A stretch of DNA of 64,000 bases from Sporomusa sphaeroides DSM 2875 (GTDB lineage: Bacteria; Bacillota; Negativicutes; Sporomusales; Sporomusaceae), in contig NZ_CP146991.1 of NCBI RefSeq assembly GCF_001941975.2, positions 2,820,501 through 2,884,500 on the forward strand. The letters run 5' to 3'. Numbering within the stretch: position 1 is the first letter of the stretch; every line of letters starts with the position of its first letter. A program made the translations under genes and the position numbers. This document shows positions 2,475 to 14,976 of this stretch, one piece after another. The notes under the pieces are model-generated. The model worked only from the letters and a program-made list of their open reading frames with translations, did no database searches and had not been told where the DNA came from.

Positions 2475-4529
<2,055 letters not shown>

Positions 4530-6752
4530 TTAGACTCTGCTGATTGGCGCCAGTTGGGCCAGCAGTTTTTTGATGCCTTCATTAGGAAAGGCAATGCTAA
4601 GCTGCATATTGTCACCACTGCCGCTGACGGCCACCACCGTGCCTGTGCCCCACTTGGCGTGATACACCTTTTCCCCGGCTTTCCATTCCAGGTTCTGTGG
4701 CTTAGCCGGGTTTTGCACCGGGCTTTTCAGGATAGTGAGTTCTGGTTTGACCGCTGCCTTAGGCAGCGAAGCGGCGGCAACCGGACGGCTGCCGGGCATG
4801 GATGACAAATAGGCAGGGCGCCCAGGCGCATAGCGTTCCATGAGCTCAGGCGGTATTTCATCCAGGAACCGGGACGGCGAATAGCATACCGTATTCCCGT
4901 AAATCATGCGCTGCCGGGCATTGGATATATACAGCTTGCGCTCAGCCCGGGTGATACCGACATAACACAACCGCCGTTCTTCCTCAATTTCCCGCTCGTC
5001 CATCAGGGTGCGGACATGGGGGAAGATACCTTCTTCCAGTCCGGCAAGAAACACGACAGGGAACTCCAGCCCTTTGGCCGAATGCAGGGTCATGAGGGTC
5101 ACCTTGTCATCAGAGAATTCATTATTATCAAGATCTGTCAGCAGCGACACATGGCTTAAAAATTCTTCCAGCGTATTTTCCGCTTCGGTCTCGGCAAATT
5201 TTTTGGCGTCACTGACAAGTTCCTTTAAGTTTTCAATGCGGCTCATCGCCTGCGGGTCGCTGTCGGCTTCCAGCTCGGCCAGATAACCGGAATCGCGCAT
5301 GACTTTATCCACCAGTTCGGGCACCGGCAGCGTATTCTGGCAGGACATCAAATTGAAAATCAATTCGGCCAGCCCTTCCAGCTGATGCTTAGCCCGCTTA
5401 GTAAGTCCCGGCACCAAGTCAGGGTTGGACACGGCATCGAACAGCGGCACACCCTGCCCGGCCGCATATTCTTCCAGCCGGCCAATGGTAGTATTGCCAA
5501 TCCCCCGGCGGGGCACATTGATAATACGCAGCAGGCTGACGGCATCTGCCGGGTTGAAAAGCACCTTGATATACGCCATGATGTCTTTTATTTCCTTACG
5601 GTCATAGAACCTGAGGCCGCCCACCATGGTATAAGGAATAGCGGCATTGCGCAGGCCTTCCTCAATGGTGCGTGACTGGGCATTGGTACGGTACAATATG
5701 GCGATATCTTTATAAGGTGTACGATACACCGTATTGAGTTTCACAATATTATCGGTGATATACCGGGCTTCGTCCCGTTCATCCATTGCCAGATAGTGAG
5801 TTATGGTATCGCCTGCCTGGTTATCTGTCCATAATGATTTGGGCTTGCGGTTGCAATTGTTTTCGATGACAGCATTGGCGGCATCGAGTATCGTTTGGGT
5901 GGAACGGTAATTTTGCTCTAATTTAATGACTTTGGCATCCGGATAATCGGATTCAAAATCAAGGATATTCTGAATATCCGCACCCCGCCAGGCATAAATA
6001 CTCTGGTCAACATCACCTACCACGCAGATGTTTCGATGTTTGGCCGCCAGACGTCGGGCAAGCAGGTATTGAGCACGGTTGGTATCCTGATACTCGTCGA
6101 TTAGGATGTAGTGAAATTTTTGCTGATATTTTTCCCGAACCGTGGCATTATATTCCAGTAGTTCCACCGACAACATCAGGAGATCGTCAAAATCCAGCGC
6201 ATTATGGACTTTGAGTTTGCTCTGGTACAGCTTGTACACTTCGGCTACTCTGAGATTGTAAAAATTGTCGGCCTGCGAAGTGAACTCCCGCACATCCTGC
6301 AGCGCATTCTTGGCATTAGAGATGGTGGATTGCACGCCGCCGGGCGTAAACTGCTTTTCGTCAAGGTTGAGTTCCTTCAGACAGGTTTTGATCAGCGACT
6401 GCGAATCGCCGGCATCATAGATGACGAAATTGCGGGTATAGCCGCCCAGGTTTTCAATCTCCATCCGCAGGAATTTGGCGCAGAAGGCATGAAAGGTACT
6501 CAGCCAAATATCTTTGGCAACCAGGCCAACGATCCCGGCCACCCGCGCTTTCATTTCGGCAGCCGCTTTGTTGGTAAAGGTTATGGCCAGAATATTATAA
6601 GGTGCCACTCCCTGTGCTAAGAGATTGGCAATCCGGCTTGTCAGGACCTTGGTCTTGCCTGAACCGGCTCCAGCCATGATTAGGAGCGGCCCGTTTACAT
6701 GGGCAACAGCTTCCTGCTGCGCCGGGTTCAAGCGGTCAAATATGTTATTCAT
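4530..6752 (-). CDS. pcrA: ATP-dependent DNA helicase PcrA (UvrD/Rep family)
   Basis: Superfamily 1A 3'-5' helicase involved in nucleotide excision repair, plasmid replication and clearing of RecA filaments. Seen: Walker A GAGSGKT near residue 28, the DEYQDTN Walker B motif, the YAWRGADIQNI motif, QNYRST, VTLMTLHSAKGLEFPVVFL and the VGITRAE motif VI, followed by a C-terminal Tudor-like segment ending WKAGEKVYHAKWGTGTVV. About 740 residues, as expected for PcrA. Start set at the ATG at 6752, which has GGAGG 4-5 bases upstream; a longer frame opens at a TTG overlapping that site and is unlikely. Immediately upstream of ligA. I saw no LexA-type box in front of it. Confidence 0.97.
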   Translation of the reverse strand: MNNIFDRLNPAQQEAVAHVNGPLLIMAGAGSGKTKVLTSRIANLLAQGVAPYNILAITFTNKAAAEMKARVAGIVGLVAKDIWLSTFHAFCAKFLRMEIENLGGYTRNFVIYDAGDSQSLIKTCLKELNLDEKQFTPGGVQSTISNAKNALQDVREFTSQADNFYNLRVAEVYKLYQSKLKVHNALDFDDLLMLSVELLEYNATVREKYQQKFHYILIDEYQDTNRAQYLLARRLAAKHRNICVVGDVDQSIYAWRGADIQNILDFESDYPDAKVIKLEQNYRSTQTILDAANAVIENNCNRKPKSLWTDNQAGDTITHYLAMDERDEARYITDNIVKLNTVYRTPYKDIAILYRTNAQSRTIEEGLRNAAIPYTMVGGLRFYDRKEIKDIMAYIKVLFNPADAVSLLRIINVPRRGIGNTTIGRLEEYAAGQGVPLFDAVSNPDLVPGLTKRAKHQLEGLAELIFNLMSCQNTLPVPELVDKVMRDSGYLAELEADSDPQAMSRIENLKELVSDAKKFAETEAENTLEEFLSHVSLLTDLDNNEFSDDKVTLMTLHSAKGLEFPVVFLAGLEEGIFPHVRTLMDEREIEEERRLCYVGITRAERKLYISNARQRMIYGNTVCYSPSRFLDEIPPELMERYAPGRPAYLSSMPGSRPVAAASLPKAAVKPELTILKSPVQNPAKPQNLEWKAGEKVYHAKWGTGTVVAVSGSGDNMQLSIAFPNEGIKKLLAQLAPISRV

Positions 6753-9344: not shown

Positions 9345-9641
9345 CTATTCATAGCAGATTTCAACAACCTCGAGATATTGCTTCAATTCCTGGGCTAATT
9401 CGCGGGCTCTAACCGGTTCCTGTTGTTTTCCGGCCTGTTCAATGGCTGCCCCGAGCTCGGTGATTCTGTCAAAGCCATAGCCGCCGCCAATACCTTTTAG
9501 TGTATGCCCAATCACCCGTATGGTCTCAGAGTCCTTACTATCTGCGGCAGTTACAATAGCGTTGATATCTTCCTGCCGCTTTTGCAGAAATCCTGGAATC
9601 AAATCCTCCAGATCACGATCAATAACAACACTGTATTTCAC
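9345..9641 (-). CDS. Histidine phosphotransfer (HPt) protein
   Basis: 98-residue all-helical protein. The motif IGHTLKGIGGGYGFDRI contains the phospho-accepting histidine of HPt domains (HxLKGxG), near residue 47. It starts at a GTG that overlaps the last codons of the hybrid kinase gene by 4 bases (ATGTGA overlap), with GAGGAGG upstream, implying translational coupling. As an isolated HPt between a kinase with a receiver domain and a REC-GGDEF protein, it very probably relays phosphate from the kinase receiver to the cyclase. Confidence 0.93.
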   Translation of the reverse strand: MKYSVVIDRDLEDLIPGFLQKRQEDINAIVTAADSKDSETIRVIGHTLKGIGGGYGFDRITELGAAIEQAGKQQEPVRARELAQELKQYLEVVEICYE

Positions 9642-12007
9642 ATCAGGTTCCTCCTCGCAAAATGTGCTATAGCATCCAACAGAACACGCTTCTTAATGGG
9701 TTTGGTGAGATGGGCATCACAGCCTGAATCACGTGTTTTTATGCCATCTTCCTGCAACGCATACGCTGTCAGGGCAATAATGGGTGTACGGGTACGGCCC
9801 TGTTCCTGTTCCCAGTTTCTGATGGTTCTGGTGGCCTGATAGCCATCCAGCACCGGCATTTGCATATCCATAAACACTAAATCATATTGGCGGGCCATAA
9901 ACTTTTCCACAGCAATCTGGCCATTGTCAGCTATATCCAGCTTATACGGAGTCTTTTTGAGATAGGCCTCAATCAGCAGCTGGTTATCTGCCGAGTCTTC
10001 CACCAGCAAAATATTCAGAGGCTCCTGCCGGATGGCTTCAGGCATTGGCTGCTGACAGGTGATAAACCCGGTGCAGGACAGGTGAGCGGCTTCTGTAGTT
10101 TCATTTCCCTGACCAACTATTACGGTAAAGTAAAAAGTACTGCCCACTCCCAGCATACTTTCCACCCAAATACGGCCTTCCATTAATTCCACCAAACGCT
10201 TGGCAATGGCCAGCCCTAAGCCGGTGCCGCCATATTTCCGGGTATCGGAAGCGTCAACCTGTGTAAACCTCTCGAAAATAGGTCCGAGCTTGTCCTGAGG
10301 AATGCCAATACCGGTATCGCGCACAACAAATAGCAATTCGACAAAGTCGGCTTCCGGTTGGCTTCTTTGCGATACCTCAAGCGTAACCTCACCGGCTTCC
10401 GTGAATTTAACGGCATTGGCCAGCAGGTTGATGAGCACCTGCTGCAAGCGAACCGGATCACCAACCAGACGGGAAGGTGTTTCCGGCTTGATATGCCAGT
10501 GAAGCGCAATGCCCTTTTGCTGGGCCTGCAGCAGTATAATCTGACAAGTCTCTTCCACCGCGATAAATAAATCAAACTCGCTTTTATTTAAAGTTGGATG
10601 CCCAAGCTCTATCTTGGAAAGATCCAGGATATCGTTGATAAGATTAAGTAAATTTTCTCCGGCCGACCGGGACACCCGCACATATTTTTCCTGTTCAGGC
10701 GTAAGCGGGGTTTCTCCCAGCAGCTCGCCCATTCCTAAAATTGCATTTAACGGCGTGCGGATCTCATGACTCATATTGGCTAAAAACTGTGATTTTGCCA
10801 CCGAGGCTGCGAGAGCTGCATCTCTGGCAACAGTAAGCGCCTGATTGGCATCATTCAGCGTTTCTGTTTTCGTACGGATGTTTTCCGCCATATAATTGAA
10901 AACATTGCATAGGGTTTTGATCTCCGAAACCGAAACATCAATAAGGCTCTGCTCAACCCGGTAGCTATAATCACCGGCCCGCATGGCGTCTGCCCCGGCG
11001 ATCAACCGCCTGATGGGAGTTGCCAGCCGCTTTTCCAGCACCATGGTTAATGGCAGGGTCGCCAGCATTAATACCAGGAAACAGATAAGCATAATGCTGA
11101 TTTGCCGGTAAAAGGACTCTAATATTTCCCCTTTTTCAACCTCGCCAATGATAATCCAGTCACGGTTAATCAGCTGGCGATAGGCACCGATAACCTCTTG
11201 GCCGCGGTAGTTGGTATAGGCGGCAGTACCTGTTTTGCCCTGGCTGACCACTTGCAGCGTTTCGCCGTTAATCGGGAAACTCAGCCTGGCATTATCCTTG
11301 GCAACCCCGTTTTTTACCAGTTGACCAATAAACCGCGACTCGGTAATCATTAACCCCTGTTGATTAATCAGATAGGTTTCTCCTGTACGTCCAAACTGAA
11401 ACTGCTTCATAATCTTGTCAATGGTGGCAAGCTTGACCGCTCCCAGCATCAGACCTTTAAATTGACGGTGTTCGTCAAAGACAGGTGCTGAAAAAACAAC
11501 TACAGGCTGCCCGTCGGCGGCCCCCCGTGCTGTCAGCACATCACTTATATATTCCTGTCCCTGGGCGGCTTTCTGATAATAAGGACGGTCAGATATATCA
11601 ATTCCTGCCGTCGCAAACGGGGCAGCAACCGTAACTCCCGCTTTATTTACATAAATGACAGCAGAAAATTCATCCTGACTTTGCAGGAACTGCCGGATTC
11701 TTGCATCGATAGACTCAATATCCTCTGTTTCGGCTTTAAGCACCGGCCAGTTGGCCATATCTCTAATGACGGCAGCGCGCTCATGAAACCACTTATCAAT
11801 GGTATCCTGCTGCATCGTAATCATCTGCTCGAGATTCTCGGCGCTTTCCCGCTTGGTATTCTGCAGCTCGTAATAAGTAAAAATAAGCATTAACGTAATA
11901 CAAGGCAGCAAAACCAGCATAAATCCCCAAAACCGCAGCAACGACTTGAGGGTATTAAGCCCAAGCAGAGCATTGATGCAATTAAACAAACGGCCAAGTA
12001 CCTGCAT
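9638..12007 (-). CDS. Membrane hybrid histidine kinase (Cache-HAMP-HisKA-HATPase-REC)
   Basis: 789 residues. A first membrane segment (about residues 25-47, [19 protein letters not shown]) and a second near residue 300-322 ([18 protein letters not shown]) flank an extracytoplasmic double-Cache sensor domain. Then HAMP, a HisKA dimerisation domain with the phospho-histidine in [18 protein letters not shown], an HATPase_c domain ([40 protein letters not shown]) and a C-terminal receiver ([30 protein letters not shown]). It would sense an external small molecule and pass phosphate through its own receiver to the downstream HPt. First gene of the three-gene operon; SD CCGGAGG before the ATG. Confidence 0.95.
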
Positions 12008-12114: not shown

Positions 12115-12153
12115 GAACAAACGTTTGCAGAACATATGTTCTTATGTTATAAT
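12115..12153 (+). promoter_or_regulatory. LexA (DinR)-type double operator and promoter of the radical SAM operon
   Basis: A perfect GAACATATGTTC (12130-12141), the GAAC-N4-GTTC core of Gram-positive LexA boxes, is preceded at a 15-base centre spacing by GAACAAACGTTT (12115-12126, one mismatch). A likely promoter overlaps them: TTGCAG (12125-12130), 17-base spacer, TATAAT (12148-12153). The perfect box fills the spacer, the classic position for repression. The radical SAM gene starts at 12228. LexA itself is not in the window, so its binding is inferred. Confidence 0.72.
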
Positions 12154-12227
12154 TATGCTAGTATTTCCGTTCACATTCGTTGAGTTTGTACGCGCCGTAC
12201 GTTACAATACATATTGGTGGTGAAACC

Positions 12228-13454
12228 ATGAAAACGCTGGACCCACTGGCTAAGCTGAAAATTTTGGGCGAAGGGGCTAAATATGATGTGTGTGCCTCAA
12301 CCGCCACCAGAGTAAAAAAGCCCGGACAATGGAATATTGGGGCAACCGCCCCCAGCGGCATATGTCATTCCTTTACTCCTGACGGACGCTGCATTTCCCT
12401 GTTTAAGGTGCTATTGACAAATTACTGTGAAAAAGACTGTGCCTATTGTCCCAACCGCGCCGGACGCGATGTCGCCCGCACCAAGTTTGCTGCCGATGAA
12501 TTGGCCGGACTATTTATGGAATTTTACCGCCGCAATTATGTGGAAGGCTTGTTTTTAAGTTCAGGTGTTACCCACTCCACCGGCCATACCATGAGTGAAA
12601 TCCTTAAAGTGGCGGAAGTCCTCCGCAGCCGCTACAAATTTGGCGGCTACATCCATCTTAAAATTTTGCCGGGTGCCGCCGATGCCGATGTGGCCGCCGC
12701 CATGCGGTTTGCCAACAGGGTATCGCTGAATATGGAGGCTCCCAGCGCCGCTCATTTGGCCCGGCTTAGCAGCAGCAAGAACTTTACCGGCGAGATACTT
12801 GACGGTATGGCCAAAATCAGCCGCCACCTGAGAAATCATCCGGGAGTCAGTCATTCCACCCAATATATTGTGGGCGCTGCCCAGGAAGCCGACCAAGATA
12901 TTTTGCAGTCGGTAACCAGCCTCTACCACCAGTACAACCTGAAACGCGCGTATTTCAGCGCCTTTCAGCCGGTAGACGGTACACCGCTTGCCACCGTGGG
13001 CCAGACACCGCTGCTGCGGGAAAACCGCCTGTACCAGTCTGACTTTCTCCTGCGCCTCTACGGGTTTCGCTACAGTGATTTGGTTTTTGATACCTGCGGC
13101 AATCTGGATCAGGACCTTGATCCCAAACTGGCCTATGCGCTCCATCATCCTGAAATCTTTCCACTGGAAATAAATAAGGCCTCGTTTCAGGACTTGCTCA
13201 AAGTGCCCGGCCTGGGCCCGCGCTCGGCCGCCAAAATTGTCCGGGTCCGCCGTGAATACCGCTTCACACAGCCGGCAGAATTAAAAAATGCCGGGTTAGT
13301 GCTTAAACGCGCATTATCCTTCATTACCATCGATGGCCGGTTTTATGGCGACCGCATCAAACTCGCCAAACCCAACCGCCAAAATTATACGCAACTCAGT
13401 TTATGGGGGGACACACGTGATCATCTGCTCACAGTCGCCATGGCCGATCATTAA
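12228..13454 (+). CDS. Radical SAM protein of the putative DNA modification/repair family (TIGR03916 type)
   Basis: 408 residues from the ATG at 12228 (GGTGGTGA upstream); a longer frame opens at 12180 but adds residues not expected in the family. The cluster motif CEKDCAYC near residue 65 (CX3CX2C) binds the radical SAM [4Fe-4S] cluster. The C-terminus carries a helix-hairpin-helix DNA-binding motif (INKASFQDLLKVPGLGPRSA). Proteins of this type are found beside a UDG-like partner and are annotated as putative DNA modification or repair proteins; the reaction is unknown. The downstream gene overlaps it by 38 bases and is that partner. The LexA-type boxes upstream agree with a role in the response to DNA damage. 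Confidence 0.88.
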   Translation: MKTLDPLAKLKILGEGAKYDVCASTATRVKKPGQWNIGATAPSGICHSFTPDGRCISLFKVLLTNYCEKDCAYCPNRAGRDVARTKFAADELAGLFMEFYRRNYVEGLFLSSGVTHSTGHTMSEILKVAEVLRSRYKFGGYIHLKILPGAADADVAAAMRFANRVSLNMEAPSAAHLARLSSSKNFTGEILDGMAKISRHLRNHPGVSHSTQYIVGAAQEADQDILQSVTSLYHQYNLKRAYFSAFQPVDGTPLATVGQTPLLRENRLYQSDFLLRLYGFRYSDLVFDTCGNLDQDLDPKLAYALHHPEIFPLEINKASFQDLLKVPGLGPRSAAKIVRVRREYRFTQPAELKNAGLVLKRALSFITIDGRFYGDRIKLAKPNRQNYTQLSLWGDTRDHLLTVAMADH

Positions 13455-14184
13455 AGCCGCGCTGCTGGCTCAAATACATAATGACCTGCCTTGCTTCCAC
13501 AGCGAACAGGATAGTCTCGGCCTGTTTAAGGATACCACCGTATATAATGCGGACGAAATACCCCTGGCAGCCTTGCTCAAACAGGTATCTGACACCTGCG
13601 GTCTGAACGCCGCCTGGCTGCTGGACAGCCCTGGGCAGACGCTCACACGGCTGGTGGCGGCCAATCTGCGTTATCAGGCGGCCGACCGGTCGGCTGTCAT
13701 TTTTGCGGCAGCCGAACAGGCTATCCGTTACGGACATTCCTATTGTTTCTGCGGTATTGGTGATATCAGCCGGATGTTTCTTTCCCGCGCCAAGGTAGTA
13801 TCGCACGAAGTGCACAAGATGCTGGGGTTTATCCGCTTTCACCCGGCTCCGGACAATACCCTGGTGGCACGGCCAAAACTGTTTCATCAAACCGCTGATC
13901 TCATTTTAAAAAAGTTTGTTGCCCGTTACCCGAACACCCGGCTTGTTTTCCTGCTGGAAGATACGGCACTGGTATTAATGGAGGGCAAGCTAACACAGAC
14001 TGCCGCCGCCCCTTACTTGCCTTATCTGGAAAATCAGGATTTTGCCGCCGCCTGGGAAACTTATTATCAGTCACAGTATATTGCCGCCCGCAAAAACATC
14101 AAACTAGCCCAGCATGTCATTCCGAAAAAATACTGGAATTGGCTGGCCGAAGGCAAAATACTGGAAAGTGAGGCTTCTAAATAA
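13417..14184 (+). CDS. TIGR03915/DUF4130-type DNA metabolism protein (UDG-linked partner)
   Basis: 255 residues from the GTG at 13417, which has GGGGGG 6 bases upstream and overlaps the end of the radical SAM gene by 38 bases; an earlier in-frame ATG has no ribosome binding site. The central part FLSRAKVVSHEVHKMLGFIR and the segment LILKKFVARYPNTRLVFLLEDT match the family that accompanies the radical SAM DNA-repair protein and that is fused to uracil-DNA glycosylase in some genomes. Its biochemical function is not known. The overlap suggests translational coupling and stoichiometric production. Confidence 0.8.
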   Translation: MIICSQSPWPIIKAALLAQIHNDLPCFHSEQDSLGLFKDTTVYNADEIPLAALLKQVSDTCGLNAAWLLDSPGQTLTRLVAANLRYQAADRSAVIFAAAEQAIRYGHSYCFCGIGDISRMFLSRAKVVSHEVHKMLGFIRFHPAPDNTLVARPKLFHQTADLILKKFVARYPNTRLVFLLEDTALVLMEGKLTQTAAAPYLPYLENQDFAAAWETYYQSQYIAARKNIKLAQHVIPKKYWNWLAEGKILESEASK

Positions 14185-14187
14185 CCC

Positions 14188-14976
14188 ATGCATAAACACC
14201 TGCCGCAACCGTACTTCAGCCGGTTTGTCAGAGCAATTATCGAATTTGACATGCTCCAGGACGGGGACAAAATCCTTGTCGGCCTGTCCGGCGGCAAAGA
14301 CAGCCTGTTTCTGACCTATGCCCTGGCAGTTCTCAAAGACATTTCACCGGTAAAATTTGAGCTGGGCGCCTTTACCCTTGACCCCCTGTTCACTACTGAT
14401 TTTGACCCTGCGCCGTTGCTGGATTTTTGTACCAGGCTGGGGATTCCTTTTGGCACCAGCCAAGCCAATATTGCCGGTATCATTGAGAATAACGCCGGGA
14501 AGGACCCTTGTTTCACCTGTGCCTTTTTCCGGCGCGGTGCCGTAAATAATTATGCCAAACAACACGGCTACAACAAAGTAGCTCTGGCACACCATCACGA
14601 TGATGCGGTAGAAACCTTCTATATGGGACTGCTGTACGCCGGTCACTTAAAAACCTTTGCTCCGGTAACCTATTTAAGCCGTACCGGTCTTACCGTCATT
14701 CGCCCGCTGGTATACTTCCGGGAAAAAGAGCTCCGGGAAAGCGTCAGCCTGCACGGCTTAACACCCATTGCCAGTCCCTGCCCGATGAACGGTAAAACCA
14801 AACGCCAGGAAATCAAAGAACGGATTGCCGCGCTGGAAGCAGCCGACCCGGCGTTTTACGCCCACCTTGCCGCCGCCATGCGCGGCGGCAAGGCTGCCGA
14901 ACTCTGGCCGGAACCACCCGAGCGCCGCCAGCTCAAAGTCAAGCATGACGCCTTTTGGCGGCAAAACCGGCAATAA
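14188..14976 (+). CDS. TtcA-like PP-loop ATPase (tRNA 2-thiolation family)
   Basis: 262 residues. The PP-loop ATP pyrophosphatase motif LVGLSGGKDSLFL is near residue 32, followed by a CxxC pair (DPCFTCAFFRRGAV) and a third cysteine in SPCPMNGKTKRQ, the pattern of TtcA/TtuA-class Fe-S thiolases that activate tRNA with ATP and insert sulfur. ALAHHHDDAVETF is also typical of the family. It begins 3 bases after the UDG-linked gene, so it is the third gene of the LexA-boxed operon. Whether it thiolates cytidine 32 of tRNA or has a repair-related role here is not visible. Co-transcription with repair genes makes an unusual substrate possible. Confidence 0.85.
   Translation: MHKHLPQPYFSRFVRAIIEFDMLQDGDKILVGLSGGKDSLFLTYALAVLKDISPVKFELGAFTLDPLFTTDFDPAPLLDFCTRLGIPFGTSQANIAGIIENNAGKDPCFTCAFFRRGAVNNYAKQHGYNKVALAHHHDDAVETFYMGLLYAGHLKTFAPVTYLSRTGLTVIRPLVYFREKELRESVSLHGLTPIASPCPMNGKTKRQEIKERIAALEAADPAFYAHLAAAMRGGKAAELWPEPPERRQLKVKHDAFWRQNRQ

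Follow-up and report, generated by a model that had tools for sequence, protein, structure and literature searches.

The stretch analysed here (the window: 64,000 nucleotides of Sporomusa sphaeroides DSM 2875, contig NZ_CP146991.1, positions 2,820,501 to 2,884,500) contains a plus-strand operon encoding a radical SAM (rSAM) protein, a DUF4130 protein and a TtcA-like PP-loop protein, preceded by a double operator of LexA type. The upstream sequence revealed box 1, GAACAAACGTTT, at 12115–12126 (plus strand), which is kept in relatives, and box 2, GAACATATGTTC, a perfect palindrome with no strand assigned, at 12130–12141; both match GAACRNRYGTTY, which we take to be the B. subtilis-type LexA consensus. 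The box starts lie 15 bases apart with a spacer of 3 bases, the double box measuring 27 bp, and a sigma-70-type promoter, TTGCAG-N17-TATAAT (12125–12153, plus strand), is interlaced with them: its −35 element (12125–12130) lies between the two boxes, and box 2 fills the 17-base spacer before the −10 element (12148–12153). The likely rSAM start, an ATG at 12228, is found 75 bases past the −10 element. Re-reading thus confirmed the initial annotation, which had described a perfect and a near-perfect box, 15 bases apart, overlapping this promoter 75 bases before the rSAM gene. Since the boxes flank the −35 element and fill the spacer, bound LexA would cover both.

The exact 12-mer GAACATATGTTC is single-copy in the window, where sites with at most two mismatches numbered 7 against 2.19 expected (1 of 100 shuffles reached 7). 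The whole genome contains three exact copies: one precedes a Y-family polymerase gene, and the third (C1:3463087) lies between an ABC-F ATPase gene and a long open reading frame (ORF) without a Pfam match. The start of a hybrid histidine kinase gene divergent from the operon (9638–12007, minus strand) is separated from box 1 by 108 bases, so this gene could also be influenced by the boxes.

To follow the operator in relatives, as the initial annotation had proposed for orthologous operons, we used a sample of 200 genomes of the class (presumably Negativicutes), 77 of which have TIGR03916 above its cut-off. These gave 78 rSAM rows. Without G130 and G085 (cut at contig ends), the retrieved set comprised 75 loci, or 76 operons with the window. 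Scanning from −350 to +110 relative to the rSAM ORF revealed the strict box at 60 of the 76 operons, whereas the site density in the remainder of these loci (5 sites in 638 kb) would predict 0.27. A first upstream control (30 of 371 ORFs) was rejected, as its hits were mostly windows reaching the rSAM promoter from a divergent neighbour; with the windows overlapping the rSAM promoter zone dropped for this reason, the strict box remained at 1 of 331 other ORFs (≥150 aa) of the same 75 loci. This genome has a single match to the double-box pattern RAACN4GTTYN3RAACN4GTTY, and 9 of the 12 family genomes have one match each, always at the rSAM operon; the backwards version is present in 2 of the 12. 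Across the class, 34 of the 200 genomes have one double box each, 25 at the rSAM operon and 9 elsewhere, and the backwards control gave one site each in 10 genomes. Six of the nine double boxes away from the rSAM operon fall in one family (f10) and may serve other genes as genuine operators.

The genome encodes one LexA above the TIGR00498 cut-off, and the lexA promoter, which is shared with a divergent YneA-like LysM gene (54.2 bits, cut-off 60), carries three boxes, AAACATTCGTTC, GAACATATGTGC and AAACATATGTTC. Strict sites are also located upstream of the recA ORF (178 bases), uvrB (103 bases) and the Y-family polymerase gene (177 bases). By the initial annotation's own criterion, a LexA recognising a different motif would have spoken against SOS control; lexA, recA and uvrB proved to carry the same motif type. 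We therefore regard the operon as almost certainly under LexA control, and the earlier argument that a LexA operator is independent evidence for a DNA-damage role is strongly supported by the genome's own LexA-type regulon and by conservation in the class. Elsewhere in this genome, a second box pair, with boxes 24 bases apart (C1:4759391-4759426), lies within a 134-aa minus-strand ORF (1245–1649 of locus L312); downstream of the pair, an internal ATG (MENKNKISIGIT...) is likely the true start of a small gene. This small ORF gave no Pfam or NCBIfam match and is a candidate for an unnamed SOS gene.

The first gene (12228–13454, plus strand) encodes a 408-aa rSAM protein of a divergent clade of TIGR03916/COG4277, recognized by TIGR03916, PF04055 and HHH_3 as well as by its tree position and predicted model; its TIGR03916 score is 412.8 bits, above the curated cut-off of 343.5. 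The CX3CX2C motif (C67, C71 and C74; 12426–12449, plus strand) is invariant across 43 aligned sequences, and a helix-hairpin-helix DNA-binding motif (PF12836) spans residues 314–354 (13167–13289, plus strand). Two kinds of rSAM were found in the class, canonical proteins scoring mostly 590–684 bits and divergent proteins scoring 403–426 bits; the latter occur in 15 genomes including this one, and both kinds only in G044. In a tree of 70 rows, which left out six fetched rows shorter than 380 aa after trimming, a branch with a Shimodaira–Hasegawa-like approximate likelihood ratio test support of 100 separates the 15 divergent rows from all others, and the window protein is about 44% identical to the canonical ones. 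The predicted model (mean predicted local distance difference test score, pLDDT, 84.3; under 50 in the tail from residue 394) is a radical SAM barrel whose fold neighbours are lipoyl synthase, HydE and BioB, the nearest being lipoyl synthase and HydE (Z 18.2; root-mean-square deviation, rmsd, 3.1 and 2.6). In L122 (G126) the rSAM is split in two ORFs.

Near the C-terminus, in the low-confidence tail of the model, the rSAM protein carries QLSLW (residues 389–393; 13392–13406, plus strand), a predicted beta-clamp-binding motif identified from sequence, alignment and the published consensus. The available text of PMC12309361 and PMC4549789 gives the bacterial clamp-binding consensus as QL[S/D]LF or QxxLF, often C-terminal, and QLSLW fits it except for W in place of F. 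We counted the motif in the last 80 residues of each rSAM: Q[LMIV]xL[FW] is present in 57 of the 76 class tails, 33 of them with QL[SD]LF (shuffle mean 0.54, largest 3), and gave 0 sites in the other 27,576 residues. Among relatives from other taxa, represented by the best 80 of 592 confirmed loci, the pentapeptide was found in 23, tails of the QLxLxF form number 38 (shuffle mean 4.6), 60 of the 80 have at least one of the two, and most of the remaining tails carry close variants. The conserved C-terminal motif suggests recruitment to replication forks, and the rSAM protein probably docks on the beta clamp, as judged from sequence. A literature search found no paper linking 'radical SAM' with 'clamp-binding motif'.

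The second gene (13417–14184, plus strand), with a GTG start, overlaps the rSAM gene by 38 bases. Its product, a relative of TIGR03915, scores below the cut-off of that model (83.1 vs 112.25 bits) and above that of PF13566 (77.9 vs 27), and was therefore filed as DUF4130 only. The predicted structure is confident (pLDDT 90.0). The top Foldseek match was PAP phosphatase (E 1.3e-3, probability 1.00, TM-score 0.41), followed by several RecJ chains, and VIA rows 1–40 are by title RecJ, Cdc45/CMG or other DHH proteins (Z 9.4 to 6.1), with unrelated proteins from 5.9. The DHH-like match spans residues 1–206. A sequence search for a solved DUF4130 structure gave only a chance-level match. YDG[ST] near the N-terminus is present in all 58 canonical DUF4130 proteins vs none of 15 divergent ones; it may be a remnant of DHH motif I. 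On the predicted model, a RecJ/Cdc45-like (DHH) fold is fairly probable for DUF4130. The canonical DUF4130 of L111 (G102) is split in two ORFs; this split, like that of the rSAM in L122, possibly reflects decay or a sequencing error.

Comparison of the two proteins across the class revealed that their types match, with 57 canonical/canonical loci and 14 divergent/divergent loci in addition to the window. The exceptions to pairing are an extra divergent copy in L066, the split canonical gene in L111, and L083 and L092, which end at contig ends; in L066 (G043, 3790-5411) a canonical rSAM and DUF4130 are directly followed by the extra divergent-type DUF4130 gene. The two versions of the pair are about 44% (rSAM) and about 18% (DUF4130) identical. 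Within the family, canonical (L031, L033, L035, L036 and L037) and divergent (L038, L039 and the window) operons have common downstream neighbours, a yibQ-like gene and a chemoreceptor gene. In G006, the stretch that separates the double box from the canonical rSAM still contains leftover sequence of the divergent leader and of the beginning of a divergent rSAM (scoring 65 against the window, with 0 of 1000 shuffles), and in G003 a divergent DUF4130 tail persists after the canonical DUF4130 gene and before the TtcA-like one (scores 27–31, reached by at most 1 of 1000 shuffles; canonical tails score 12 and 15). We conclude that the pair was swapped at its site while the operator on one side and the third gene on the other stayed constant. 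The double box was found in 11 of the 14 fetched divergent loci as well as the window, vs 12 of the 61 canonical loci.

The last gene of the operon (14188–14976, plus strand) starts after a 3-base gap and encodes a PP-loop protein in which the motifs SGGKDS and CFTC are followed by a further Cys. Its score is below the NCBIfam TtcA cut-off (156.7 vs 272 bits), so it is named TtcA-like only; its solved relatives are TtuA, NcsA-type proteins and TilS, and it is a probable tRNA thiolase. The initial annotation had placed this gene in the same operon, which was borne out here and in the order, where 12 of 28 genomes have a TtcA-like gene and in all 12 it adjoins the rSAM genes, as read from the fetched loci for 11 and from coordinates for G130. 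A TtcA-like gene (E up to 1e-30) is present in 114 of the 200 class genomes. Two of the unlinked genes, at L172 and L182, lie near DHH-DRTGG-CBS proteins. yibQ homologues flank 21 of the 75 rSAM loci and 3 of the 18 unlinked TtcA-like loci, and their presence at both kinds of locus suggests that the cassette landed beside a TtcA-like gene already there. The TtcA-like gene is probably a passenger of the operon, presumably induced with it, and need not work with it.

Three other explanations were weighed. The three genes could form one pathway, with the TtcA-like protein adding sulfur to DNA or tRNA in the damage response, as the initial annotation had asked in raising a nucleic-acid sulfur or base-repair step. 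The tight spacing fits this (the 3-base gap in the window, 4-base overlaps in L126 and L128), the gene is seen within the order only beside the rSAM pair, and the 'linked' label requires three changes on the TtcA tree, so that more than one linkage is possible. A dedicated pathway of this kind looked strong within the order and was undone by the class search: outside the order, 80 of the 102 genomes with a TtcA-like gene have no rSAM above the cut-off, and the 22 genomes with both include only two linked cases (G033 and G044, with 4-base overlaps), 18 with the gene elsewhere and 2 at contig ends that could not be judged. No strict LexA box was found within 350 bases upstream of any of the 18 unlinked genes (one with only 210 bases available), and the TtcA-like gene stands beside the rSAM in none of the best 80 of 592 loci from other taxa. 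G003 retained its TtcA-like gene through the exchange of the pair, and the shared yibQ locus can explain the linkage. The sulfur or base-repair step is thus unsupported, and it is unlikely either that the TtcA-like protein is a functional partner of the rSAM pair or that the three genes make up one pathway.

A base-excision system centred on uracil-DNA glycosylase (UDG) is less probable still. The family names point to UDG, the available part of PMC8565304 offers a base-excision reading, and a UDG domain is fused to DUF4130 in 2 of the best 80 of 592 loci from other taxa, in Asaia (L271) and a Rhizobiales metagenome-assembled genome (L276). A search with one family-4 UDG seed detected none in the 75 class loci or in the other 78 of those 80, and the two UDG-superfamily genes of this genome are far from the operon. 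The description 'UDG-linked' therefore stands as a family name and not as a statement about the locus, and the glycosylase-based reading of the system is corrected for the class studied, where none was found beside the operon. Finally, judged with LexA as the only regulator looked for, it is very improbable that the double box serves another, operon-dedicated repressor instead. The two-box arrangement occurs once per genome and is nearly confined to the rSAM operon, and the lexA boxes are spaced differently (39 and 27 bases); but either box taken singly matches the sites upstream of lexA, recA and uvrB, a single ordinary box precedes the rSAM operons outside the order, and the same rSAM is under LexA with other LexA motifs in other phyla (PMC8565304, available text).

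The reading that we prefer is an SOS operon with a clamp-tethered rSAM and DUF4130 repair pair that behaves as an exchangeable cassette; we consider it likely as a whole. Several results weigh against it. No strict box was found in the scanned stretch of 16 of the 76 rSAM operons. The strict motif showed no excess genome-wide (30 strand matches vs 41 for the backwards pattern), its other matches falling within ORFs or near unrelated genes; such an excess was dropped as evidence, and the LexA case rests on position and conservation. The strict pentapeptide is missing from 19 of the 76 class tails, some of which are contig ends or broken and others of which carry EPMSLF, EEMDLF, QPSLF, QTNLW or QSSLW. 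The structural match to DHH proteins is of moderate strength (Z 9.4, rmsd 4.6), Foldseek gave no E ≤0.001, and none of 51 DUF4130 members matched any Pfam DHH model at E up to 1.

In the SOS reading, LexA on the two abutting boxes would cover the −35 element and the spacer and keep the promoter off, until DNA damage and RecA-stimulated LexA cleavage release it; the rSAM and a DUF4130 protein of matching type would then be expressed. The rSAM would bind DNA via its helix-hairpin-helix, and, as the conservation of the motif suggests, the QLSLW tail could tether it to the beta sliding clamp for action at stalled forks or gaps. There, the damage to a base may be reversed, or the base modified, by means of a 5'-deoxyadenosyl radical; DUF4130, in its predicted RecJ/Cdc45-like fold, would be the DNA-binding partner. 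In relatives the distant canonical version has replaced the pair in place behind the same operator, and the TtcA-like gene most likely rides along. SOS control implies a DNA-damage role, and the rSAM pair very probably acts on damaged DNA; the chance that radical chemistry directly reverses or modifies a base is about even. Only tentatively, and with rather less confidence, do we extend to the whole of TIGR03916 the picture of a fork-repair enzyme on the clamp with a RecJ/Cdc45-like, DNA-binding DUF4130, which in this class would form an exchangeable cassette behind a double LexA operator that marks the operon. A widespread rSAM family, so far described as 'putative DNA modification/repair', thereby gains a precisely located SOS operator together with predictions for a clamp peptide and for the fold of its partner. 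Should the rSAM indeed dock on the clamp, its radical chemistry would take place at the replication fork, and the candidate lesions would narrow to those met in replication.

A PADLOC search gave no matches. The closest reported systems are TIGR03916/COG4277 with DUF4130 (TIGR03915), for which the available text of PMC8565304 describes LexA control of COG4277 and its partner in Bacteroidetes, Verrucomicrobia and Alphaproteobacteria, while that of PMC3765255 describes DUF4130 as a predicted enzyme related to mutagenesis, with links to both SplB-like enzymes and UDG. The operon studied here shares the rSAM family, the partner domain family and LexA control, and differs in its divergent clade (44% rSAM and about 18% DUF4130 identity), another LexA motif, the double operator, a TtcA-like third gene and the absence of a detected UDG. 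The clamp motif and the DHH-like fold do not appear in the account of TIGR03916 systems in the available part of PMC8565304; relative to the literature searched, these two features, the double operator and the in-place exchange are new. Spore photoproduct lyase (SplB) is similar as a radical SAM DNA-repair enzyme that is SOS-linked in some species (PMC8565304 and PMC3765255, available text), but belongs to COG1533, and the helix-hairpin-helix and the fold neighbours of the rSAM here differ from it. DUF4130 resembles RecJ/Cdc45 in its predicted fold over residues 1–206, whereas it has no DHH sequence match and the divergent clade is missing the YDG[ST] of canonical DUF4130. The TtcA-like protein shares the PP-loop SGGKDS, CxxC and third Cys with the thiolases TtcA, TtuA and NcsA, although it scores below the TtcA model cut-off. 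With clamp-binding repair proteins the rSAM shares the C-terminal pentapeptide, and PolC, in the available text of PMC12309361, ends in a comparable C-terminal QLSLF.

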